A stretch of DNA of 64,000 nt from contig NZ_FZPD01000007.1 in the NCBI RefSeq assembly GCF_900188325.1, forward strand, positions 1 to 64,000, given 5' to 3'. This DNA is from Ekhidna lutea. Lineage in GTDB: Bacteria > Bacteroidota > Bacteroidia > Cytophagales > Cyclobacteriaceae. The notes beneath the pieces are model-generated. The model ran no database searches, had not been told where the DNA came from, and saw only the letters and a program-made list of their open reading frames with translations. The first letter of the stretch is position 1, and each line of letters starts with the position of its first letter. A program made the translations under genes and the position numbers. This document shows positions 1 through 27,768 of this stretch, piece by piece.

Positions 1-2
1 AG

Positions 3-266
3 GTCGGAACTCCTGAACGCGAACAGTATGAGGTTGAACTCAAATTGGAACTGATTGGAGACATGATCCAACAAGCCAGGAAGCAGCGTAACCTAACGCA
101 GCAACAACTCGGTGAACTTATTGGAGTTAAGAAGGCACAGATTTCAAGACTTGAGAACAACACAGGGAACGTAACTATCGAAACGATTCTCAAAGTATTC
201 AACGCTCTTGAAGCGAAGGTGAACTTCAACGTTAAGATGCTGAATAATAGAATAAACGTGGCGTAA
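3..266 (+). CDS. HTH (XRE/Cro-type) antitoxin-like regulator, 5' end outside window
   Basis: The frame is open to the first base, so the N-terminus lies upstream; a TTG at 45 is internal and not a convincing start. The visible 87 residues hold one helix-turn-helix: LTQQQLGELIGVKKAQISRL is the HTH, followed by the NNTGNVTIETILKVFNAL tail common in HigA/HipB-like antitoxins of Bacteroidota. The preceding GTPEREQYEVELKLE stretch is also typical of that group, which usually follows a RelE/HigB toxin. A toxin would be expected just upstream but cannot be seen. The gene is followed 4 bp later by a palindrome-ended intergenic element. The role as a DNA-binding autorepressing antitoxin is inferred from family membership. 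Confidence 0.75.
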   Translation, partial: VGTPEREQYEVELKLELIGDMIQQARKQRNLTQQQLGELIGVKKAQISRLENNTGNVTIETILKVFNALEAKVNFNVKMLNNRINVA

Positions 267-270
267 ACGG

Positions 271-496
271 TGTGTAACAAACACTAGCAGGCATGGCCAC
301 ATGAGCCATTTGCAGATTTCATTGGGCTAACCGCTCACCTTCCGCCAGGCAAATTTTGTTGCGTTCTACCCTGCCCTTCTGCTGGGGTTTCTTGTGTTTC
401 GCAGTGTCTTTCTGGAAGTTAATCGCACCGTTCATGTTCGCTCTTTCTCCGCTATTTATTACTTTTATGGCCACAGCCCGCTAGTTGGGCGATATC
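271..496. repeat. attC-like intergenic element, copy A
   Basis: A 226-bp noncoding stretch whose ends form an imperfect inverted repeat. The left end has ACTAGC (283-288), GGC and TGGCCA (294-299); the right end has TGGCCA (468-473), GCC and GCTAGT (480-485). It opens with TGTAACAAACACTAGC and closes with CCGCTAGTTGGGCGATAT. The body shares the 11-mer CTACCCTGCCC (366-376) with the element at 25000-25226. This layout recalls integron attC sites, but it is longer than most described attC sites. It lies between the HTH gene and an IS110-family transposase remnant. Confidence 0.5.
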
Positions 497-506
497 TATG
501 GTAAAA

Positions 507-1055
507 TCAAGTCATTTGCACTTTATTTTGTCCAACTCGATCCTCATAAGGTGTTCCACGCTTCACAACCGCCACAATCCGATGTAATAGTTTGTTTCTA
601 ATAGCATTTAGGATGGTCATCTTCCCTTTCCCTTCTTCTCGTTTGCGCTTGTAGTATTCCTTCAATTCCGGACAATGTCTAATCGCACTCATAGCTGCCA
701 TGTGCAGGTGATATTTCAACACCCTATTAGCAAAACTCGATGTTCCCGGTGATCCTTTGATACTTGTTCCACTACTGTACTCAAACGGAGCTACGCCACA
801 ATAGCAGGCCAGCTTCTTCCCGTCCAGCATCCGGGTAAACCCATGCGTATAAACGATCAGGTCTGTAGCCAATACTTTGCCTACACACTTAACCGAGGTA
901 ATCAGCTCATACAATGCCCGCACTTCTTTGTCGATCTCAATGACCTCCAGCATTTTGTCTTCTACTTTCTTCAGCGATTGAGCCAGCCCTTCCAATGCTG
1001 TTTTACTCAATCGTTTCAGCTCATTGGCAGCTTTCTTATCAATCACTGAGCTCAA
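507..1055 (-). pseudogene. IS110-family transposase fragment (C-terminal Transposase_20 part)
   Basis: These 182 residues match the C-terminal half of IS110/IS116/IS902 transposases: a helical linker, then the conserved SVKCVGKVLATDLI segment, and the GVAPFEYSSGTS motif that carries the conserved serine. The N-terminal DEDD RuvC-like domain (roughly 150-180 residues in full-length members of about 330-350) is absent. In-frame stops occur just upstream on the minus strand (a TAA a few codons before the TTG at 1055), so this is a 5'-truncated remnant and unlikely to transpose. Its 3' end lies 10 bp from the attC-like element at 271-496. That is notable because some IS110-family elements (the IS1111-attC group) insert into attC sites. 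Confidence 0.8.
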
Positions 1056-5466: not shown

Positions 5467-7698
5467 ATGGAAACTAGACCCAAAGAGGGGATTCAGGGAT
5501 TAATTGAAAATTGGCGAAGTGATTTAATTGCGGCGGTGAGTGTCGCACTCATTGCTTTACCACTTTCATTAGGTATTGCGTTAGCAGCTGGGGCACCTGC
5601 GATGGCTGGTATCTTTTCAGCAGTTGTGGGTGGGGTGGTCACAACCTTTTATCGGGGAGGCCATATATCAGTCAACGGACCTGCCAAAGGAGTCATTGGC
5701 GTAATACTTTTGGGTATTACATTGATGGACGATGGTACAGGTCAGGCCTTTAATTATGTATTGGCAGCTGTAGTTGTTTCCGGGGCAATTCAAGTGTTAT
5801 TAGGATTATTGAAATTGGGTCGATTAGCGGATATCTTCCATTCTTCCGTGATTCACGGCATTTTGGCAGCCATCGGAATTATCATTTTTGCGAAACAGAT
5901 CCATGTTGCCCTTGGCACACATTCTGATAGTTCGAGCATCATACAAAACCTCATCGATGCGGTTGTATACTTACCTCAAGCCAATCCGTTTGTCGTGATC
6001 ATTTCTTTGGCAGGCTTGCTTTTACTATTGTATCATTCCAAAATAAGCCTCCGGTTTTTTCATTTTTTACCTGCACCCATGTGGGTCATAGCCCTCTCCA
6101 TTCCATTTGCCTATGCCTTCAATTTCTTTGACCAACATACCCTTTCATTCTTTGGAAAAGCATATGAGGTAGGTCCTCATCTATTGTTGGACATCCCCGA
6201 TACCATCAAGGATTCAATCATGCACCCGAATTTCAGTAAAATCGATACACTGGATTTTTGGACAACTGTATTCTCCATTTTGATTATCACAAGCATTGAA
6301 TCCCTGACTATAGCGAAAGCTGTTGATAAAATCGATCCTTATAAACGGAAGACTGATTTGGATAAGGATTTAACAGGTATTGGATTGAGTACCATGGCAG
6401 CTGGTTTGATTGGTGGTATGCCAATCATTGCAGTGATTATTCGGAGTACGGTTAATGTCCATAATGGTGCGAAGACCAGGTGGTCGAATATGTATCAGGG
6501 ACTTTTGTTGCTGCTTTTTATTGTGGTTTTGAGCCCAATAATGAGACAAGTACCGCTATGTGCTTTTGCTATTCTACTCGTTTATACAGGATTTAAATTG
6601 GCATCACCTTCGGTATTCAAACAAGCCTATAATCAAGGAACTGAGCAACTAATATTCTTTATAGCGACGATGATTCTAACCCTCTATACCAATTTATTAA
6701 TTGGTTTACTCGGTGGATTATTGTTGGCACTTGTCATTCACATGCTATTGGCAAGGCTGTCCATTTCTCAATTTTTTAGAATGGTTTATAACTCGCGCAC
6801 AAAATTGCTAAAGCAACCAGATGGCAGTTTCGATTTAAAAATTAGAGGGATTGCAAATTTTTTAGGCATTCTGAAAGTCGACAAACTAGTAGCTCAAATT
6901 CCTCCCGGGGCTAATGTCAATATTGATTTATCAGAAACAAGACTGGTAGGCATGACCTATATGGACTACCTGGTGGAATTCTTAAAAATGCAAAGGAATA
7001 CAGGTGGTAGCGTCTTTATAACAGGATTGGATTCACATGTTTCATCAACGACGTATAACAGAGCTTTAAAAATCAGTTTATCCGATTCAGCCGCTAAATT
7101 ATCGCAAAGGCAAAAGCGATTACGAAATTTAGCAACCAAGAAAGATTATCAATTCACGAGTCATGTTGATTGGAATACGCTATATCTAAAGAAGTTCCAC
7201 TTTTTTGAAATCAGGCCTATTGAACGCAAATACAATTGCCTCAAAGGAACATTTAACGATTTGAATGTGTCTTGGGAAATTGCGGACGTCACATTCAATG
7301 AAGGTCAGGCTTTTACAGCTGAGACGTTTAATACAACGCTAATGGTCATAAAGTTGAATAAAAAAATACCCATTTTCACAATGGAAAAAGAAGGGGTATT
7401 TGATAAAATATTTGATCGGGTGATTGCCTTTACAGGCTATAAGGATATTGATTTTGAGATGTACCCGGATTTTTCTAGAAAATTCCTGCTTAAGGGCAAA
7501 AGAGAATCTCAGATTCGGTCATTTTTTACAGATGAAATCATTCGCTTTTTCGAAAATCATCAAATTTATCATTTAGAAAGCAATGGCGAGGCGCTACTCA
7601 TTTTTGATAAAATTAAACTGGCCCGAACCGATGAAACCATTAAGTTTATTAATTACGGTGAAGAATTGGCCCGGCTTTTAGTTGCAAAAACACCATAA
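5467..7698 (+). CDS. SulP family inorganic anion transporter with STAS-like and extra C-terminal domain
   Basis: The N-terminal 440 residues are a SulP/SLC26 membrane domain: LPLSLGIALAAGAPAMAGIF and the following NGPAKG segment are diagnostic, with 10-14 hydrophobic segments. Residues about 455-545 fit a STAS domain (beta strand, NVNIDLSETRLVG, helix). After it comes about 190 extra residues, including PDFSRKFLLKGK and IRSFFTDEIIRFFE, that are not part of normal SulP proteins. Transport of sulfate, bicarbonate or a similar anion is the family role, but the substrate cannot be told from sequence. The 184-bp upstream gap suggests its own promoter. Length 743 exceeds the usual 500-600. Confidence 0.85.
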   Translation: METRPKEGIQGLIENWRSDLIAAVSVALIALPLSLGIALAAGAPAMAGIFSAVVGGVVTTFYRGGHISVNGPAKGVIGVILLGITLMDDGTGQAFNYVLAAVVVSGAIQVLLGLLKLGRLADIFHSSVIHGILAAIGIIIFAKQIHVALGTHSDSSSIIQNLIDAVVYLPQANPFVVIISLAGLLLLLYHSKISLRFFHFLPAPMWVIALSIPFAYAFNFFDQHTLSFFGKAYEVGPHLLLDIPDTIKDSIMHPNFSKIDTLDFWTTVFSILIITSIESLTIAKAVDKIDPYKRKTDLDKDLTGIGLSTMAAGLIGGMPIIAVIIRSTVNVHNGAKTRWSNMYQGLLLLLFIVVLSPIMRQVPLCAFAILLVYTGFKLASPSVFKQAYNQGTEQLIFFIATMILTLYTNLLIGLLGGLLLALVIHMLLARLSISQFFRMVYNSRTKLLKQPDGSFDLKIRGIANFLGILKVDKLVAQIPPGANVNIDLSETRLVGMTYMDYLVEFLKMQRNTGGSVFITGLDSHVSSTTYNRALKISLSDSAAKLSQRQKRLRNLATKKDYQFTSHVDWNTLYLKKFHFFEIRPIERKYNCLKGTFNDLNVSWEIADVTFNEGQAFTAETFNTTLMVIKLNKKIPIFTMEKEGVFDKIFDRVIAFTGYKDIDFEMYPDFSRKFLLKGKRESQIRSFFTDEIIRFFENHQIYHLESNGEALLIFDKIKLARTDETIKFINYGEELARLLVAKTP

Positions 7699-19571: not shown

Positions 19572-22500
19572 TCACTCAATGAAATTTCGTTCGAATTTTT
19601 TCTCGGCTTTATCCGACTTATGAACTCCTATGCTACTCACAGCGCCACTTAACAACGATTTGCCCCAATAATTAAAAATAGCTCTGGAGCTGTCTCTACG
19701 TTGAAAAATGGTGCCCTTTCGTAAAAAAACAAGATAACTTGGATTCTTATTTTTAACCACGAACGTATTGGCAAAGAATGTCTTTATACCCTGTCCGAAT
19801 CCTTGCGTATCATGGGTCTTCGTATTCAGAATTTGGATTTTTAGGTCGTCGTATCGGAAACGCATTTCACCTCTCGAAAGCGTATCATTTGCCCTGAAAT
19901 TAAAATATAAATCCCTTGCATAGCCGCTCTTAATATTGACATTGGCCACCGGTCCAAGCATACGATTCATTGAATCAAGCTGAAAATCTTTCACCGTGCC
20001 GTTTAATGAAAAAGGCTCATTTTCATCTTTCAAATTAAACGCTCCATTGACTTCAAATCTGCCAGATTCCATCAATTTACCGTTAGCATGTAACAGCATC
20101 ATATCTGCTGAGGTCATATCAACATTCCCTACATTCCGTAAGGTGACATCCAGGCTATCAAATGAAATCTCACCATAAGTGAAATAATTATCCGGCTTTT
20201 CCCTGTATTTGATTGCTCCCTTTAAACTAATAGTATCTATATGAAAGGCGGTTTCCAGCTCTCTGATATAATGCTGAGGCAGATGACGAATCTGATTTTC
20301 CGGAAATGGTACCCCTTTATCGCGATAAATGAGCGCACTCAGATCATCAACATTAACTTTTCCCACCTCATACCTCTTTTCTGAAAGTATTGCTTTTAGA
20401 TCAATTTCATCTACGTAAATTGATCCGACAGATACATCAAACCAGTCATTTTGCCTTTCGAGGTTTTCAGAATATTCTAACGCTGAGTATTTAGGAATTA
20501 AATGAATATCATCCATGCCAAGTGTGTTTGCAGGATAATCAAATTGATACCTTTCAAGGGATAGGTTATAGTTTTCTCCAATCGGCATAAAATAGGGTCC
20601 GGCTTTAAACGACAGACGGTCCAGTCGATCCATAATTTGGTCTGCAGTCAATGTATCTTCAGACTGAAACGATTCAATTAAGAGGTCTCCATTTTGAACT
20701 AAATAATTCCGTTGATTTGTAGTGTCACTAAAATTAAAATTGATACCCGTTATAGATGTGTACCCGACCTCTATGGGTGAAGTAAATGGATTGTTTTTAC
20801 CACTATTACCTATTTGCAAGTCACCAGATGGATTTCTTACCAAAAGAGAATCGACTTTAAATTTCTTGCTCTCATAAAGCCCTTCCAAATCGAGATTTTT
20901 GAATTGAATTGATGGAACCAGCAAGTGTGAGAACTGCTTATGATCAGCATAATAAAAAGAGTCAATAGTTAGGTTTTTGGTGGCGCTGTGATATGAAGTA
21001 CGATTTAAGCTTAAAGAATCTCCAGAAGGTAGATATGGGCTAATCCGATTAGCAATAAAAATCATTGAATCTGAATAAATAGCTCCATCAGTAAATGGCT
21101 TGTCCCTGGGGAAACTCAGGTCGAATAATTCCACATTTAATACATCCAACCTAAGTGAATCGAGATTAGCCTCTCCTTGTGGGACGATCATTACATTTGA
21201 CGAATCTATTTTAAGCCGCTTCATCACCATGGTAAATGGATTTCTTGATTGCAATGAGTCTGAACCTGCTTTCTTTCCCATTTTAGCTAATTGAAGTCTA
21301 ATATTAGGACCGATTAAATGAACCAAATCAGTAAACAGGTGATTTTCATCAAAGAATTTGGATTGCTCAAATGCAGTTAATCTCACGAAAGGAACATCAG
21401 CATTCAAAAGCATACGGGAAGTATCGTGTGAATTGATTGGTTTAACCAGCAGGTCATAAAAGAGCATCTCACTATTGGAAGTATCATAGCTCCATTTCGC
21501 AAGCTCAACCTGATGATTATAGGCCGCCGATCGTAGGCTGATATTTTCAATACCCATACTCCTAAAAGCAGTAGAGTCTCCAACAAATATATCTGCATCC
21601 AGCCCGTCCATTGAGAGTTCTAGCGAATCGACATTTCCACTTAAGCGCCCACCACTTACGATCAATTCTTTCTCGATTCCTAAACCTCCTTTTTCACCTC
21701 CTTTTACCATGTGGACGTCAAATTCAAAATCTGGGTTTACTAAAAAAGCACGCCGAAAAGCAGTGTAGTTACCATCAATCAAGCTATCGATGCTGATTTC
21801 TGAAATCATCAGCGAATCAAAGCGCCCGTGTACATGCTGGTTATTTGTTTCAATGTCCACTTCCCAATCGATCAGCTGAAAAGCGGACATTCGATCATCG
21901 ATTAAAAGGTTTTCTCCGATCACTTTAATGCTATCGCGATCGAAGGAAAAATTTCTGGCAATTAATTTTGAATCATTAAACAATCGCTGAAAACTGCGAC
22001 TAGCGGCACTCACATGAATGTATCTCATGTCCAGATCAATCCGATTTACGTTGATGCCTTTTGGTAAGGTCAACTCCACATCCGAAAATCGTATCTGGTC
22101 AATTGAAATTTCCCTGAAGAAAGGAGCAATTGATTGGTATAGATTATTAACGGTAACCTTCTGCTGCTTTGTGGTACTTCCTGTATTTCTAACCACTAGT
22201 AAAGCATTGGAGAGTTCCATTGTTCCCGCGATAAGTACCTTATCAGCAATAGCCCGCTGAAAGTCTATATTCTTTAGCTTAAAATTGGGTACCTCAGCAT
22301 CTACCAGGATTTTTGTTTCATTGCCCTCCCTTTCATGACTTATCTGCATGTTTTTAAAACTCAGCTCAGAATCAAATGAATTGACGCGCAAAAGCTCAAA
22401 GAAAACCGTATGGGTGCTGTCAGGCAAAAGATAGGAATAGTTGTGAATATCTAGCTCTATGTCTTCAAAATATTTGAACCGATGATCAAATCGATAATTG

Positions 22501-23618
22501 CTTGTATCCAAATGGATATTATGAAATACAACACTTGACTCCTCCACCTTCAACCGCTGATAGGTATCTACCTTGTCTATCTTAATATCTACGTGAGCGT
22601 TGTTCACTCTAAGCTTACCTACATCCAATGATCCGAAAATGTTGAAAATAAGTGTAAGCAAGGAATTATCAGTTTTATCCTTTTGCTTGATTGTGTGTGA
22701 TTCATCATCCACAAACACGATTGGTTCATCCAAAATCAACTCTTCAATAATCAGGTGATTGTCCTGATAGGCTGATACATAATCAACCCCTTTAAAACTC
22801 AATTTAGGAACATGGATATCATATACGTTTACATCATTTTGTCCTTCAAATGTCACTCCTGACGAGGCTAATGGCTGTACTCTCAGATTCTCAAAAGTGA
22901 GAATAGAATCAGCAGTGGAAAGGATAAATTTGTCAAAGGTGATTTGGTGGATACTATCTGGTAGATGAAAGTGCTGGTTACGTATTTCCAGTTGGATTTG
23001 CTCCGAGTAAAAGACTTGATTTTTTCGAGCAGTTGAATCCATTAACAAATTCTTTACAAGAAAATCAATTTCTCCCAGTGCAAACTGATCCCCATCATAT
23101 TGCAGATCCCCATCCTGAATTCGGAAATAGTCGATCTTAAGCACTTTGAGATAATCTGATATGGCCTTATACATATTACCAGCCTCAAAACTGAATTTTG
23201 TACGTTTGTCCGTTTCCAGACTGACCATATCAATGTCAGGATCCACCACACGCACACTTTTTATGATCAGCTCTTTGTCGAGGTATAGTTCATAGATAGA
23301 CTCCAGATCGATGACCAGTTCAGCAAGATGAATTTCATAGATATTGTTGAGTCCCAGTTTGCTAAAATCGTGTGTAGAATCTGCTTGCAGATGCAGGTTA
23401 TTGACCTTGATTCTACTTTCAAACGCATCAAAATCCAATGACTCAAATTTTATCTGATAAAATCCATTTGTCTCCCTTTTGATGACTTCATTGAGGATGG
23501 TGCCTGCATAGCTTTTACCCACAAAGAAAAGGGTAGCCCCCAGCCCAAGAATAAACAGTATTATTCCCATGCTCCAGAGGATAGTCCTCCTTGTATTAGG
23601 CTTGAATGGGTTAGGCAT
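19572..23618 (-). CDS. Very large AsmA/TamB-like envelope protein
   Basis: The 1348-residue product has one N-terminal membrane helix (about residues 13-35) and then a long run of short amphipathic beta segments. Many carry recurring 'DSLLV.NP', 'I.IDSI' and 'NL.LD...HDFS' patterns, up to a basic C-terminus. The N-terminal region after the helix (INEVIKRETNGFYQIKF-like, then INVNNLHLQAD) is the AsmA-like start. Proteins of this group form long hydrophobic grooves bridging the inner and outer membranes and move phospholipids. That role is inferred from the family; I see no specific motif. Nothing else of this size is near, and it seems to be a single-gene unit. Confidence 0.7.
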   Translation of the reverse strand: MPNPFKPNTRRTILWSMGIILFILGLGATLFFVGKSYAGTILNEVIKRETNGFYQIKFESLDFDAFESRIKVNNLHLQADSTHDFSKLGLNNIYEIHLAELVIDLESIYELYLDKELIIKSVRVVDPDIDMVSLETDKRTKFSFEAGNMYKAISDYLKVLKIDYFRIQDGDLQYDGDQFALGEIDFLVKNLLMDSTARKNQVFYSEQIQLEIRNQHFHLPDSIHQITFDKFILSTADSILTFENLRVQPLASSGVTFEGQNDVNVYDIHVPKLSFKGVDYVSAYQDNHLIIEELILDEPIVFVDDESHTIKQKDKTDNSLLTLIFNIFGSLDVGKLRVNNAHVDIKIDKVDTYQRLKVEESSVVFHNIHLDTSNYRFDHRFKYFEDIELDIHNYSYLLPDSTHTVFFELLRVNSFDSELSFKNMQISHEREGNETKILVDAEVPNFKLKNIDFQRAIADKVLIAGTMELSNALLVVRNTGSTTKQQKVTVNNLYQSIAPFFREISIDQIRFSDVELTLPKGINVNRIDLDMRYIHVSAASRSFQRLFNDSKLIARNFSFDRDSIKVIGENLLIDDRMSAFQLIDWEVDIETNNQHVHGRFDSLMISEISIDSLIDGNYTAFRRAFLVNPDFEFDVHMVKGGEKGGLGIEKELIVSGGRLSGNVDSLELSMDGLDADIFVGDSTAFRSMGIENISLRSAAYNHQVELAKWSYDTSNSEMLFYDLLVKPINSHDTSRMLLNADVPFVRLTAFEQSKFFDENHLFTDLVHLIGPNIRLQLAKMGKKAGSDSLQSRNPFTMVMKRLKIDSSNVMIVPQGEANLDSLRLDVLNVELFDLSFPRDKPFTDGAIYSDSMIFIANRISPYLPSGDSLSLNRTSYHSATKNLTIDSFYYADHKQFSHLLVPSIQFKNLDLEGLYESKKFKVDSLLVRNPSGDLQIGNSGKNNPFTSPIEVGYTSITGINFNFSDTTNQRNYLVQNGDLLIESFQSEDTLTADQIMDRLDRLSFKAGPYFMPIGENYNLSLERYQFDYPANTLGMDDIHLIPKYSALEYSENLERQNDWFDVSVGSIYVDEIDLKAILSEKRYEVGKVNVDDLSALIYRDKGVPFPENQIRHLPQHYIRELETAFHIDTISLKGAIKYREKPDNYFTYGEISFDSLDVTLRNVGNVDMTSADMMLLHANGKLMESGRFEVNGAFNLKDENEPFSLNGTVKDFQLDSMNRMLGPVANVNIKSGYARDLYFNFRANDTLSRGEMRFRYDDLKIQILNTKTHDTQGFGQGIKTFFANTFVVKNKNPSYLVFLRKGTIFQRRDSSRAIFNYWGKSLLSGAVSSIGVHKSDKAEKKFERNFIE

Positions 23619-23664: not shown

Positions 23665-23760
23665 AGAACGTGTCTGCTCAGAGAGCATTATGGAATAAAC
23701 ATTCCATACATCCGCTATTTTTGAAAGGTGTATATCACGCATATACGTGATATATTAATG
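23665..23760. repeat. Partial attC-like element, copy U
   Basis: This stretch upstream of the first cargo gene shares GTGTCTGCTC (23670-23679) with the element at 26928-27139 and AGAGAGCATT (23680-23689) with that at 25000-25226. It ends at a possible G/TT junction at 23760. It lacks the TAACA-like start, so it would be a truncated or recombined copy. It also contains two tight hairpins described separately. Confidence 0.35.
23689..23754. promoter_or_regulatory. Two adjacent palindromes upstream of the cargo block
   Basis: TATGGAAT/ATTCCATA (8 bp, 4-base loop; 23689-23708) is followed by TATATCACG/CGTGATATA (9 bp, 6-base loop; 23731-23754). Both are perfect. The second ends 6 bp before the inverted-repeat boundary at 23760. 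They could be operators, a recombination site or terminators; neither has a T-tract. Confidence 0.45.
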
Positions 23761-23798
23761 TTATATGCCATAAGTGCTACTTCAAAAATTTTCACCTC

Positions 23799-24998
23799 AT
23801 GAAAACCAGCAGCCTCACAAAACTCATTTTTACTCTAATAACTCTTCTACTTACCAATCATATTTATGCTCAATCGGATTCTAAAAAATTGAAAAATATT
23901 ACGTCTGAACTTGCAGATCTTTCAAATCAAACTTTTCATTCGTTTGTTGAAGACAAGGCATTTAAATTAATCCAAAATGGAAATGAGATTTACGATAACT
24001 CAAATACAAAAACGGACTTGGAAAAGCAATATTCGAAGTTCTTGGAAGTACAAAATGATATAAAATCAGTCGTCAAGGGAAAGTATCATTCAGCATATGA
24101 ACAAGGAAAGCAAAACGTTCTTGCTGGAACAGTCCCAGGGTTTACTTCTAGGTCTTTACCGAAGGAAGAAGCTCAAAAATTGATCAAATTCTCTGTGAAC
24201 CCCGCGTTAAATGAAGACTGGAATAGTTTGACAGAATATAGCCATATAATGACAGAGATGGAGCAGCTCTATCGTAACATTCAAGTCAATGGAGCAAATA
24301 AGTCTTCTAAAATAGAATATGATTCCCTTGACGCAATCTTTAAGAAGAACAAATACTACAAGAAGGTGGACATTAAAATTGAAGAATCAATATGTTCAAA
24401 AAACAAAAAATATCTTCAAACTTTAAAGCTAAACTTTGGATGGATAGCGGAACACACTAAGAATAAATCCAGACCCATTGCAGATATCACAGAGAGATTT
24501 AACCAATCCAAAAGAATTGCTGATGAATTGATTGGAAATGATTGCCTTTACGGTTTTTCAGTGCAGGACACTTTGACCAAATACCAAGAACGAATTAAAA
24601 ACTTTAACAGCATTTCTCCCAAACATGAAATCCAAACTGAGGAACTTGATGTCAGTTCTTTTAGCGAACAAGAAAAAAAGGTTGATTGTGCCATTGCAAA
24701 TAAATTCCTCGAACTAACTGGAGCAATTAAAACACATTTCTCATCAAATAAGCCGTCAGCACTCACATTAATTAACTTTTATAAAGATGGTTTAGGAATG
24801 GAGTACTATCGCTCTTACAGGGAACAACTAACCGAATCAGGGGCTCTATTTTATGATGAAATTCTTAAGATTGTTGGCTTGATAATGTACGACATAGAGA
24901 ACGGGGCAAGTTCTAACCGTCAAGCTGGAATAGTTATGCAGACTTCATTTGCGAACTCAGACTTAACAACTAGAAAAGAGAAGCTTTGTGGAAAATAA
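23799..24998 (+). CDS. Secreted protein of unknown function (cargo gene 1)
   Basis: The 399-residue protein has a signal peptide (about 1-25, cleaved near IYAQS). The mature part is lysine-rich and mostly helical, with six or so cysteines only in the second half (CSKNKKY, NDCLYG, DCAIANK and a C-terminal CGK). I do not recognise the family, and no catalytic motif stands out. The gene is flanked by an exact 11-bp inverted repeat, TGTTATATGCC (23759-23769) and GGCATATAACA (25000-25010). That is the arrangement of a gene cassette. It probably has its own promoter in the 38 bp upstream, since the nearest gene is divergent. Confidence 0.6.
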   Translation: MKTSSLTKLIFTLITLLLTNHIYAQSDSKKLKNITSELADLSNQTFHSFVEDKAFKLIQNGNEIYDNSNTKTDLEKQYSKFLEVQNDIKSVVKGKYHSAYEQGKQNVLAGTVPGFTSRSLPKEEAQKLIKFSVNPALNEDWNSLTEYSHIMTEMEQLYRNIQVNGANKSSKIEYDSLDAIFKKNKYYKKVDIKIEESICSKNKKYLQTLKLNFGWIAEHTKNKSRPIADITERFNQSKRIADELIGNDCLYGFSVQDTLTKYQERIKNFNSISPKHEIQTEELDVSSFSEQEKKVDCAIANKFLELTGAIKTHFSSNKPSALTLINFYKDGLGMEYYRSYREQLTESGALFYDEILKIVGLIMYDIENGASSNRQAGIVMQTSFANSDLTTRKEKLCGK

Positions 24999-24999
24999 A

Positions 25000-25226
25000 G
25001 GCATATAACAGACGCTCATCCGCCATGTGTCTAAGTGCTTTCTGAGAGAGCATTGGTACTCGCCCGCTACCCTGCCCATTCTGAAACTTCATCTCCCGCC
25101 CCCCTTCCTTCTTTCTGGACTTAGACTTGTAGAACGCATTTCTTCGTAGACACTTCATCGGTGTTGGGCAGTTTCGCTAGTTTAGTGCTCTTTACAACTA
25201 GTGGGCATACTCTCGCTAGTTAAGCG
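25000..25226. repeat. attC-like intergenic element, copy B
   Basis: A 227-bp noncoding element that begins in the last bases after cargo gene 1 with GGCATATAACAGACGCT and ends TCGCTAGTTAAGCG before TTGTGATCC. A second end-like copy, TCGCTAGTTTAGTG, lies 39 bp earlier (25174-25187). It contains GTGTCTA ... TAGACAC as an internal inverted pair. It shares CTACCCTGCCC with copy A, CCGCTACCC with copy C and TTCTGAAACTT with copy D. No open frame in it looks coding. Confidence 0.55.
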
Positions 25227-25271
25227 TTGTGATCCATTGACTGCAAATCGGAAATTCTCTAACTTTACTGT

Positions 25272-25502
25272 ATGGCAACTAAGGAAAAACTAAGAAAAGC
25301 GATCCTCAACAAGATCAAGAAACTTTCGGACGACAAACTTTCGAACCTGGATGCCTATATCTCTGATTTAGAGTCGCACTTGTCAACTGAGAAATCAACT
25401 TTGTCATTCAGCGGAATTTTCAAGGAACTTGAATTAACCGAACTAACTTCTGAACTCCATAAGTCAAGAGAAGATAATAACGAGCGAATTCCACAGTTTT
25501 GA
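25272..25502 (+). CDS. Antitoxin of a VapBC-type pair
   Basis: The 76-residue protein has a helical N-terminus (KKLSDDKLSNLDAYISDLE) and the C-terminal STLSFSGIFKELELTELT and ERIPQF. These are typical of the small antitoxins that precede PIN toxins in Bacteroidota. The toxin reading frame begins inside its stop codon (TTGA overlap of 4 bp), as expected for a coupled pair. A TAACTTTA sequence just upstream of the ATG is one base off the -7 consensus. Confidence 0.8.
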   Translation: MATKEKLRKAILNKIKKLSDDKLSNLDAYISDLESHLSTEKSTLSFSGIFKELELTELTSELHKSREDNNERIPQF

Positions 25503-25903
25503 ACCCTTCACTTATTGACACAGACATTCTTTCATACTTTTTGAAAGGCAACAAACAAGTGACCGAGAACTTTGAACTTTATCTTAAGGAACAATCGAAA
25601 ATCACTATTTCAGAAATAACCTATTTTGAGGTTCTGTCCGGCTTAACTTTCAAAAAGGCCACTAAACAAATCCAAGAATTCGAAGACTTCATTTCAACAT
25701 GTGAAGTTCTGAAACTCTCAACAACTTCATTGCGTATTTCGGCGAACATCTACGCTGAGCTGAGAGAAAAAGGAGTAACAATCGGAACTGCTGACCTGTT
25801 GATTTCTGGTATCGCCCTTGCTAATAAGCTAACACTGGTTACGAACAACCAGAAACATTACCAGCCTATTACGAAACTTGCAACTTCCAACTGGAACGAG
25901 TAA
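25499..25903 (+). CDS. VapC-like PIN-domain ribonuclease toxin
   Basis: VapC toxins cut tRNA or rRNA when the antitoxin is lost. The 134-residue protein shows the PIN acidic residues: Asp7 in LIDTDILSYF, Glu44 (YFEVLSG), Asp99 (GTADLLISG), and the late VTNNQKHY segment. The start is a TTG overlapping the antitoxin stop; no ATG is better placed. The pair sits between two noncoding stretches in the cargo block. Toxin-antitoxin pairs are common cargo in integron cassette arrays. Confidence 0.85.
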   Translation: MNPSLIDTDILSYFLKGNKQVTENFELYLKEQSKITISEITYFEVLSGLTFKKATKQIQEFEDFISTCEVLKLSTTSLRISANIYAELREKGVTIGTADLLISGIALANKLTLVTNNQKHYQPITKLATSNWNE

Positions 25904-25990
25904 AACCTGACTCCCGAATATCTATCTGAAACTTAAGATGGGAAAGCAGGTACCAAATCGTCCAATAGGCCTCAATACCTTGGTTAGCGC
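25904..25990. other. Short spacer after VapC, possible element remnant
   Basis: An 87-bp gap that ends GGTTAGCGCATGG, reminiscent of a cassette junction (G/TTAGCGC). It lacks the TAACA start and shares no long word with the other elements. If the VapBC genes were a cassette, its own recombination site seems to have been lost here. Confidence 0.25.
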
Positions 25991-26092
25991 ATGGTTCTTT
26001 ACCTGACTTTCCTATCTTTAAGTTACAAAATCAGTTTCTTGGAATATTTATACGAAGGGAAGCTAAAGGTTATCAGCAATATCCTTACAGAA

Positions 26093-26926
26093 TTGAGATC
26101 TACTTATCAACTAATACTAGTTTCCTTTTTGATACTGAGTTGTTCTAGTTCAACAACAGAAGAATCCAGTGAACGTCGTACTATCGATAGTCTTTATTCA
26201 AGTGATATGTCCTACTTGGCCCTTTTGAACTCAGAGGACAAAAGATATATTCTGACCATACTTCAGGATACACTTCACATTTTAGATTCAACAATAGCTT
26301 CGGAAGGTTACCATACCCCTTTGATTAATATGTCTTGGTCAGACTTGGCTTTGACCGTCAAAGTTGATAATGATTTTGGTGATAACATAAGAGAATTGAA
26401 ATTTGACTACTCATCAAACTATACACCTAAAAAAGATCCAAAAACAAAGATCAGTCAGATAACACTCACAGATAAGATTTACTTGTCTGGTTCAGAGAGA
26501 CATTTTAACAATAGTGAGAATTGTGAATTCTATTTTCCATGTGACTGCTGCATGGGTAAGTTACTGTTCACTAGTGCTAGTAACTATATGCTTGTCAACT
26601 ATTGTATGTCCGACTTTGTAGTGACCAAAGGAACCTATGAGATGAGAGACGGAAGTATAACCCTGAACTCCGACGGATCACGAATTGATGTAAAGTACAA
26701 CTATGAGCGTGAGGCTAACCCAGATGCAAAGCCAGCTTTTTTCGTAGAGGGCTCAACAACTTCAGGATATCAACTCAACTACAGAATTGATACCTGTACG
26801 CGAACTATGCTAGTAAGCGAACGGGATAACGGAACATTTATCGCAATAGAGACGGATTTACAGTTAACAGATGAACTTGAACATCTAAAGGAGTTTCAAC
26901 TAGCAGAACTCCTGGAATTGAAATGA
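26093..26926 (+). CDS. Lipoprotein of unknown function (cargo gene 3)
   Basis: From a TTG at 26093 the product is 277 residues and opens with a lipoprotein signal: LILVSFLILSCSSS, with the Cys as lipid site. An ATG at 25991 would add 34 residues before the signal, which is less plausible and would start right at the possible cassette junction. The mature part is rich in Ser, Thr and Asp, with a CEFYFPCDCCMGK cysteine cluster near the middle and a late CTRTMLVSERDNGT. I do not recognise the family. The next intergenic element begins right at its stop codon. Confidence 0.55.
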   Translation: MRSTYQLILVSFLILSCSSSTTEESSERRTIDSLYSSDMSYLALLNSEDKRYILTILQDTLHILDSTIASEGYHTPLINMSWSDLALTVKVDNDFGDNIRELKFDYSSNYTPKKDPKTKISQITLTDKIYLSGSERHFNNSENCEFYFPCDCCMGKLLFTSASNYMLVNYCMSDFVVTKGTYEMRDGSITLNSDGSRIDVKYNYEREANPDAKPAFFVEGSTTSGYQLNYRIDTCTRTMLVSERDNGTFIAIETDLQLTDELEHLKEFQLAELLELK

Positions 26927-26927
26927 A

Positions 26928-27139
26928 GCTGATAACAATTGCTAGCACGAATGCGCCTGAGTGCTATTCACAAATTTTATCTGATCTTCACAGCTCCGCT
27001 ACCCACCTGCCTGCCGGCAGGCAGGTTCTGAAAGTGTCTGCTCTCCTAGCAACTTTGGTGCTTCTGGCATTTGTCTTTTAGAAGCATTTTTCCTTAGATA
27101 GCTTTTGAGGGTGGTGCACCTTCGTTACTTTTAGTGGCA
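26928..27139. repeat. attC-like intergenic element, copy C
   Basis: A 212-bp noncoding element that opens AGCTGATAACAATTGCTAGC and ends TTTTAGTGGCA before the junction TTGTACTCA. It shares CCGCTACCC and TTCTGAAA with copy B and GTGTCTGCTC with copy U. A perfect 22-bp palindrome at 27005-27026 (CTGCC/GGCAG-type) sits in its middle and looks like a later insertion of the REP-like family seen at 18601-18739. Confidence 0.5.
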
Positions 27140-27162
27140 TTGTACTCAATTAAAACTACACA

Positions 27163-27597
27163 ATGGATTCAAAATTCTACATACCCAGCGGACAAGGAGA
27201 AAACTATGACTACTCGCAGGATCACTGCTTTATCAAAGTTTCATCCAAAGACACTAATGGTGAATTATGCTTGATTGAGGACACAATTAAACCTGGCTTC
27301 CATCTAAAAAGACATCATCATAAAATAATGACAGAAGTGTTTTATATGCTGGAAGGTGAAATGGAATTGATTTTTGACGATAGTACAATTCTGCTAAAAT
27401 CTGGAGATACGATCACAGTAGCTCCTAATGTCTGGCATGAGGCTAGATGCAGTAAAGGTGGTAAGATGCTCACCATTTTCAAAAATGGTCAGTTCGATGT
27501 TTTCCTGGAACAGCTTTCTACAATGTCACAAGAGGATTTTTCCAACGTTGAATTGATGAAATCGTTTTCGGCTAAATTCGATATTTACGAAGAGTAA
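27163..27597 (+). CDS. Cupin-domain protein (cargo gene 4)
   Basis: The 144-residue protein is a single cupin barrel: HHHKIMTEVFYMLEGE carries the first metal-binding motif, and GDTITVAPNVWHEARC the second (final His). A small-molecule enzyme or sensor role is possible; substrate unknown. It is flanked by a perfect 9-bp inverted repeat, TTGTACTCA (27140-27148) and TGAGTACAA (27601-27609), which marks it as a second cassette-like unit. Confidence 0.75.
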   Translation: MDSKFYIPSGQGENYDYSQDHCFIKVSSKDTNGELCLIEDTIKPGFHLKRHHHKIMTEVFYMLEGEMELIFDDSTILLKSGDTITVAPNVWHEARCSKGGKMLTIFKNGQFDVFLEQLSTMSQEDFSNVELMKSFSAKFDIYEE

Positions 27598-27600
27598 AAC

Positions 27601-27768
27601 TGAGTACAACAAACGATTTTGTGGTATGATAAACTTTTTTCTGAAACTTGTTTTAATCAGTTTGGCAAATACCTAGAAATCCCATCTTCATCGAAAACCG
27701 TTTTTGATTTTAATAGCCAATTGCCTTTTATCCCATCATTTAGTTAGCTTAGTGAAATCTCATTTTTG
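27601..27768. repeat. attC-like intergenic element, copy D
   Basis: A 168-bp noncoding stretch that opens TGAGTACAACAAACG, directly after the cupin gene, and ends near CATTTTTG before TTAACGCCTAGCC. It shares TTCTGAAACTT (27639-27649) with copy B and has TAGTTAGCTTAGTG near its end. It is shorter and more diverged than copies A-C, and marks the downstream edge of the cargo block. Confidence 0.4.

Follow-up and report, generated by a model that had tools for sequence, protein, structure and literature searches.

The 64,000-nt window analysed here, the start of contig C12 of the Ekhidna lutea genome (4.23 Mb in 16 contigs, rated 99% complete), carries a row of unrelated genes separated by long noncoding elements and raises the question of which system assembled them. 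An earlier note, made from the letters of the window, had read this locus as an integrase-less gene-cassette array with unusually long attC-like sites. Integrons, the best-known natural gene-shuffling platform, are characterized by unidirectional arrays with toxin-antitoxin-like and unknown cargo, attC sites with R and L arms, a G^TT crossover, an attI site beside a tyrosine recombinase gene and complementarity of each cassette with its own end. We conclude that the elements very probably belong to an integron-type cassette capture system of Bacteroidota whose recombinase is without the IntI-specific domain. It is filed as integron-type and not as a canonical integron because most integron features visible in a sequence are present but the domain that defines integron integrases is absent.

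Copies of the element are numerous and are arranged as cassette boundaries. A blastn search of the genome with the element at 25040-25260 returned 16 matches, those outside C12 lying only on the short contigs C5, C15 and C16. Read end to end, these contigs consist of tandem cassettes in a single orientation, each a small open reading frame (ORF) or a toxin-antitoxin-like pair (by eye) followed by one element of ~224 nt, starting in AACA and ending in CGTTA or CGTTG. A covariance model built from 24 copies of the long type, the window copies 275-494 and 25006-25229 among them, matched 39 sites in the genome at E ≤ 0.1, far more than chance, mostly on C5, C14, C15 and C16 with scattered sites on C6, C7, C8, C10 and C11; some of the scattered ones measure no more than about 110-113 nt. 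Arrays of small ORFs contain most of the copies, and the cassette array with long attC-like sites proposed for the window is borne out by dozens of copies at cassette boundaries and by the two kinds of pairing described below.

Cassettes that circulate as single strands folded into hairpins should begin with nucleotides complementary to their own last ones. Across 21 cassettes of the main array (one of them misread by the boundary rule, scoring 4 and kept in) the own-end match averages 7.0 of 9 positions, against 2.97 with the ends of other cassettes, a value reached by none of 100,000 permutations. This pairing extends over GTT and seven variable bases and then ends; apart from GTT the junctions have no core in common, and every cassette has a word of its own that pairs with its far end. 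Among intervals from eight further genomes of the family (median 800 nt), 38 of 50 match their own end at 6 or 7 of 7 positions, compared with 1.7% of mismatched pairs. Three cassettes of the window score 10, 9 and 9 of 10, and random pairs reach 9 in 4 of 100,000 cases.

The elements also have R and L arms that pair, and their GTT/AAC ends are conserved; paired structure, whose absence would have counted against the earlier note, is present in the folded copies. RNAalifold gave 13 pairs on the top strand, 10 of them with double changes, and 20 on the bottom strand, 11 with double changes. In 74 elements from eight other genomes, none of which entered the model, 94.6% of the cells in the arms are standard pairs, in an alignment fitted to the model and so favouring its structure. 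Changes on both sides of a pair number 279 cells against 78 in shuffled alignments (standard deviation 9), and the covariation score of the arms, which lie ~200 nt apart, is 0.708 against 0.163 after shuffling and no more than 0.088 after sliding the partners; the numbers of varying pairs and of varying pair types are not clearly above shuffles (169 and 80 of 500 as high). When the 24 copies were folded with DNA parameters, the arms fell within the predicted fold in 20 for the bottom strand and in 14 for the top strand.

Some elements are scattered singly and ORFs resembling transposases of repetitive extragenic palindromes (REP) occur near one locus (by eye), as would be expected if the elements were structured RNAs, or dispersed repeats of the REP or miniature inverted-repeat transposable element type, that came to lie between genes by accident. 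This explanation is extremely improbable, given that the arrays run in one direction with a small ORF or ORF pair to each element, and given the own-end pairing and the linkage to a recombinase. Structured RNA was rejected, the array contigs having no Rfam match at gathering thresholds.

There is indeed no integrase gene in the window, and "integrase-less" is a fitting description of this locus but not of the genome, where a non-canonical tyrosine recombinase adjoins the other end of the main array. A search for a recombinase with the integron-specific extra domain had been proposed; the one found beside the array, at the end of C8, is without that domain. Here the gene of a 289-residue recombinase (P0001) is followed by GGTATATTTGAAAGG, an inverted repeat (TATCACGC ATAC GCGTGATA) and ATTAATG^TTAGAGAC, and a tyrosine recombinase gene stands beside arrays in other genera too. 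The closest named relative by recombinase is Ekhidna (63-65%); non-Bacteroidota titles among the matches (e.g. Rickettsiales) may be mis-binned. R146, K171, H235, R238, H261 and Y270, which we take to be the catalytic residues, are invariant in a 32-row alignment. The GKG-to-LRH span is 67 residues in the C8 recombinase and 67-72 in all 80 relatives, similar to XerC (71) and XerD (75) of the same genome, versus 109 in 27 of 30 canonical integrases (one has 72, two have 113); 27 rows from the host family (51-136 residues, with Xer and wrongly read ORFs mixed in) were not used in this count. TIGR02249 and NF040815 both score below their cut-offs, the former with 207.4 bits (cut-off 265) in two pieces and the latter with 207.3 bits (cut-off 220), and an alignment with VchIntIA (2a3v) leaves 28 residues between the matched pieces where IntI has 71. 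An AlphaFold model (mean predicted local distance difference test score 84, low at 264-276 including the catalytic tyrosine) is nearest in fold to VchIntIA 2a3v (Z 23.2, root-mean-square deviation 2.6, 258 aligned), tied with the archaeal Xer 4a8e (Z 22.7, deviation 8.6). In a tree, Xer sequences including the host XerC and XerD lie on one side of a branch (100/99), apart from the recombinase; the canonical and new groups are mostly separate and not cleanly resolved, since bootstrap trees unite them as single clades in only 34% and 58% of cases, respectively. The wrongly extracted ORFs L043, L058, L060, L063, L064, L066, L159 and L160 were left out of this tree, and the canonical row L169, on a very long branch, was kept. 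Orthology of the recombinase to XerC or XerD was ruled out, since XerC-like and XerD-like genes lie elsewhere in the genome and Xer is apart in the tree.

That the array is split over short contigs, so that sequence may be missing, and that canonical IntI is common elsewhere in the phylum (over cut-off in 105 of 395 genomes of the phylum sample) would fit a canonical integron with its true IntI hidden in a gap of the assembly and the C8 recombinase as an unrelated Xer-like neighbor. We consider this very unlikely: among the IntI matches listed, one genome (G154) is of the same class and the others only of the same phylum, a search of the host genome, despite its rating of 99% complete, gave no canonical IntI over cut-off, and the C8 recombinase stands directly before an attI-like site and a cassette start, as it does in relatives of many genera.

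The attI-like site is in part a recurrent feature of these relatives. Perfect inverted repeats with arms of at least 8 occur in the 90 nt after the recombinase stop codon at 16 of 76 loci, compared with 1 of 76 shuffled, and 14 of these 16 have GTT 4-8 nt beyond the repeat. Not every relative shows the repeat, as the median of the best arm (5) is the same as in shuffled sequences. Judged by its sequence, an attI with a G^TT crossover lies beside the recombinase. The motif TAnnTTTG, in a stretch reaching from 40 nt upstream to 60 nt downstream of the stop codon, is found on the coding strand at 22 of 76 loci, on the other strand at 3 of 76 and in 12 of 456 control windows; passages of PMC9723704 describe it as the sigma-A -7 box of flavobacteria. 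These counts suggest a promoter reading into the array.

An inverted repeat of about the size of dif, together with the Xer-like span (67 residues versus 71 and 75) and fold of the recombinase, could also point to cassettes that move in double-stranded form, by recombination of the Xer/dif type at the attI repeat and with no hairpin attC. This is improbable, as neither the private word that each cassette pairs with its own far end, with no fixed junction core beyond GTT, nor the covariation of arms about 200 nt apart is needed for double-strand recombination.

The integron-type reading extends to other genomes of the class, taken as Bacteroidia. Close relatives of the recombinase, defined by E ≤ 1e-45, a threshold beyond Xer-level matches (near 1e-31 to 1e-34), were found in 195 of 395 sampled genomes and 112 of 197 genera. 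Cassette chains with own-end complementarity follow the recombinase at 20 of 41 loci at p ≤ 0.01 (none of 100 shuffles as high) and precede it at 0 of 37, the 41 being those of 80 loci with at least 2 kb downstream. One mismatch is allowed in this test, because a perfect match with k = 10 proved too stringent for C5 and the window. Another 20 regions were picked by hand (one per genome, with an intact frame and apparently enough room, other eligible hits being passed over in part) and searched with gaps from 40 nt instead of 50. Of the 16 with 2 kb or more, 7 reached p ≤ 0.05 downstream (4 of them ≤ 0.01), compared with 0 of 16 upstream. A contig ends within 2 kb downstream of the recombinase at 39 of 80 loci and upstream at 7 of 80, as expected if a repetitive array follows the recombinase.

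The element itself was found in 38 of 118 genomes of the host-family sample, host genome included. With the 227-nt model, a class-wide search gave matches in 4 of 395 genomes, two of them in the family of the host, so the sequence of the element appears family-specific while the architecture is not. Among 104 attC-like spacings in 26 chain loci (among L076-L151), 20 measure 51-56 nt, 42 measure 114-121 nt and 11 measure 176-186 nt; shuffled sequences place 4, 1 and 2 of 103 spacings in these classes. In the host family (L182-L191), 21 of 66 model matches are 100-129 nt and 45 are 220-234 nt long, by a model built from the long type; all five matches of L188 and three weak ones, of 156-178 nt and between both size classes, were left out of the original 74. 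Clusters near 54, 118 and 181 nt in relatives and near 111 and 227 nt in the host family imply steps near 63-64 nt, for which helical phasing, with a step near three helical turns of the hairpin, is a speculative explanation. The own array also has two elements with insertions, 275 and 290 nt long. Described attC sites measure about 57-141 nt, with 200 nt as the upper limit in the context of IntegronFinder and HattCI; the classes of 54, 111 and 118 nt lie near or within the described range and those of 181 and 227 nt outside it.

Several results weigh against the integron-type reading. The insertion of ~42 residues that defines integron integrases is missing from the recombinase and from all 80 relatives examined. 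The bottom strand is the more stable in 21 of 24 folded copies, only slightly so, and the folding energy of whole elements is ordinary (mean z -0.85 for the bottom and -0.37 for the top strand), so that neither a fold of the ~170-nt middle nor a choice of strand follows from these energies. No significant chain lies downstream at 21 of 41 loci of the first sample and 9 of 16 of the second. Among 20 family genomes with elements, G036, G059 and G092 have no recombinase match at E ≤ 1e-30 and G016 and G057 have Xer-level matches only, and G042 has its array (C37) on the opposite side of the recombinase. Cassette excision and integration are what we infer from the arrangement, in which alternative contig joins are the only sign of rearrangement.

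In the window, the locus at 23716-27768 reads as an attI-like site with four partly decayed cassettes, a satellite of the larger main array:

23716-23763, plus strand: attI-like site with TAnnTTTG box, inverted repeat and crossover-type G^TT with the G at 23760; 92% identical to the C8 site behind the recombinase
23760-25009, plus strand: cassette 1, ORF 23799-24998 (399 aa, no Pfam match); its start GTTATATGCC is the exact complement of its own end (10/10)
25006-25229, plus strand: attC 1, full-length long type, 224 nt; 168.2 bits with the covariance model, used in the model
25226-25903, plus strand: cassette 2, PIN-domain ORF 25499-25903; upstream 76-aa ORF 25272-25502 with no Pfam match, antitoxin-like by position only
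26069-26936, plus strand: cassette 3, lipoprotein-like ORF (by eye) ending at 26926, no Pfam match; own end 9/10
26933-27133, plus strand: long-type attC whose 3' half has decayed; 68.6 bits, not among the copies in the model
27139-27610, plus strand: cassette 4, cupin ORF 27163-27597; own end 9/10
27607-27768, plus strand: possible remnant of a further attC (by inspection), opening AACAAACG; no match to the covariance model

The own end of cassette 2 (start 25226) was not found, the best candidates within 2 mismatches lying at unfitting places, and its attC (about 25904-26068) is therefore probably decayed. The true start of the cassette 3 ORF is probably inside the cassette and not at 25991. 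The minus-strand ORF 19572-23618 (1348 aa) adjoining the locus has a weak DUF748 match (31.9 bits, cut-off 50).

The earlier note had counted five element copies in the window. The one at 25006-25229 is full, that at 275-494 is full with an altered end and that at 26933-27133 is decayed. Neither of the other two matches the model at E up to 10: 27598-27768 is no more than a remnant, and 23665-23790 is no attC. The right part of the latter (23716-23763) is the attI-like site instead. All five short words quoted as shared between copies are exact at both of their places and occur only there on the plus strand of the window. A TAACA-like opening was attributed to four copies and is present at 275, 25006 and 26933, the remnant having CAACA at 27606. 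The comparison with a CALIN (cluster of attC sites lacking an integrase) holds insofar as the locus has at least two attC sites (25006-25229 and 26933-27133) and no integrase in the cluster; it fails in that the locus is headed by an attI-like site and a matching recombinase is encoded elsewhere in the genome.

The left edge of the window and contigs C5, C14, C15 and C16 are fragments of the main array, with two features in the window:

1-266, plus strand: last cassette of the main array, at its distal end; helix-turn-helix (HTH), antitoxin-like ORF 45-266, Pfam HTH_3
275-494, plus strand: attC-like element of the long type, 220 nt, one of the model copies (126.6 bits); last bases replaced beside an IS110-family fragment, by comparison with the C15 copy

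The window and C15, the latter taken on its minus strand, start with the same 95 nt. C8 and C15 likewise end with the same 95 nt, which are the first of a cassette. Because these ends are shared (C12/C15 and C15/C8), the left edge of the window is the distal end of the array and the recombinase stands at its proximal end. C14 and C16 (L013, L010) have both 95-nt ends in common and differ in the cassettes inside. Such shared ends look like assembly forks, arising from duplicated cassettes or from a population with alternative cassette orders; one cassette is duplicated inside C15 (96.6% over 768 nt). Compared with ten array loci of the host family, the array matches mostly within attC; outside attC, two matches were seen among the 40 longest, one between C10 and L190 (73% over 619 nt) and one between the HTH cassette of C15 and L186 (72% over 286 nt). 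A fragment of an IS110/IS116-family transposase (494-1055, minus strand, 182 aa) starts directly after the attC at 275-494; insertion sequences with attC as target are known.

Further copies of the C8 attI lie at C11:565935 (94%), C6:569296 (86%), C6:755232 (76%) and C13:32927 (78%, weak). The orphan attI-like copies, each with an ORF behind it, are:

L027:7935-7988 (C11:565935-565988)
L192:3296-3346
L023:10232-10281
L193:1927-1975

Two of them directly follow terminator-like sequences of apparent housekeeping genes, groEL and a gene on C6 (by eye); these are attI and not attC copies. The C11 copy, behind groEL, heads one cassette with an exact own end, whereas the search for an own end found none at the two C6 copies (569k and 755k) and the C13 copy has no clear crossover. 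The genome thus has at least two attI-headed cassette loci with no adjoining recombinase, that of the window being the larger, and up to three more attI-like copies. On C11, a REP-associated transposase-like ORF (by eye) lies inside an attC remnant (L027:6683-7114), with a related ORF nearby at 5855-6163.

In the mechanism that we propose, a tyrosine recombinase lacking the IntI insertion is encoded just upstream of a short attI, usually in the same direction, and the inverted repeat of the attI ends a few nucleotides before G^TT. A circular cassette would carry one attC and fold as a single strand, its own ends pairing over 10 bp as an R stem, followed by a 7-bp L-like stem and the second arm. 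The recombinase would join the circle with attI, or attC with attC, at G^TT, leading to one-directional accumulation of cassettes, and could also cut them out and change their order. The first cassettes are probably transcribed from a TAnnTTTG promoter that lies between recombinase and attI, and the window locus, with its satellite attI, would depend on the recombinase in trans.

All the integron features listed at the outset are found here, as in chromosomal (sedentary) integrons such as Vibrio superintegrons. Unlike in these, the recombinase is without the IntI-specific insertion (67 versus 109 residues in the GKG-to-LRH span), own-end pairing covers 10 bp where the integron R box has 7, attC sites fall into length classes up to about 227 nt and the attI is an inverted repeat. 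The recombinase resembles Xer/XerA recombinases in size, fold and its sub-threshold match to NF040815, but differs in its linkage to attI and cassette arrays and in its separation from the host XerC and XerD. As in Treponema integrons, it is transcribed toward attI and in cassette direction, whereas the Treponema systems, in the passages available of that work, have an integron-type intI and attC of 63-132 bp (PMC3607928). In excerpts of the IntegronFinder 2.0 survey, Bacteroidetes previously had only In0 and a complete integron in Salinibacter is added (PMC9024848); a review, in the part available, names Bacteroidota among the phyla with integrons (PMC8618304). Passages of two papers describe the extra IntI domain as essential for integrons (PMC8138268; PMC9668308), and surveys demand it, as excerpts of PMC2426708 and, for the IntegronFinder rule, of PMC9668308 indicate. 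No account of such a system was found in the titles and abstract openings of the open-licence PMC literature, preprints not included, and prior work elsewhere is possible.

Surveys that require the IntI domain would miss this recombinase. As for a second integron lineage spread through about half of the class, recombining folded attC without the IntI insertion and with a longer R stem, attC stems growing in fixed steps and dispersed attI served in trans, we judge the case evenly balanced. With a widespread system that apparently works without the IntI domain, what that domain does can be tested directly; the system would also offer a large unexplored pool of cassettes and a new structure-specific recombinase. 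Integron-type systems would extend through a major bacterial class in which few had been reported, by the available passages of the survey. The host and many of its relatives in Bacteroidota appear to store interchangeable gene cassettes, as integrons do.

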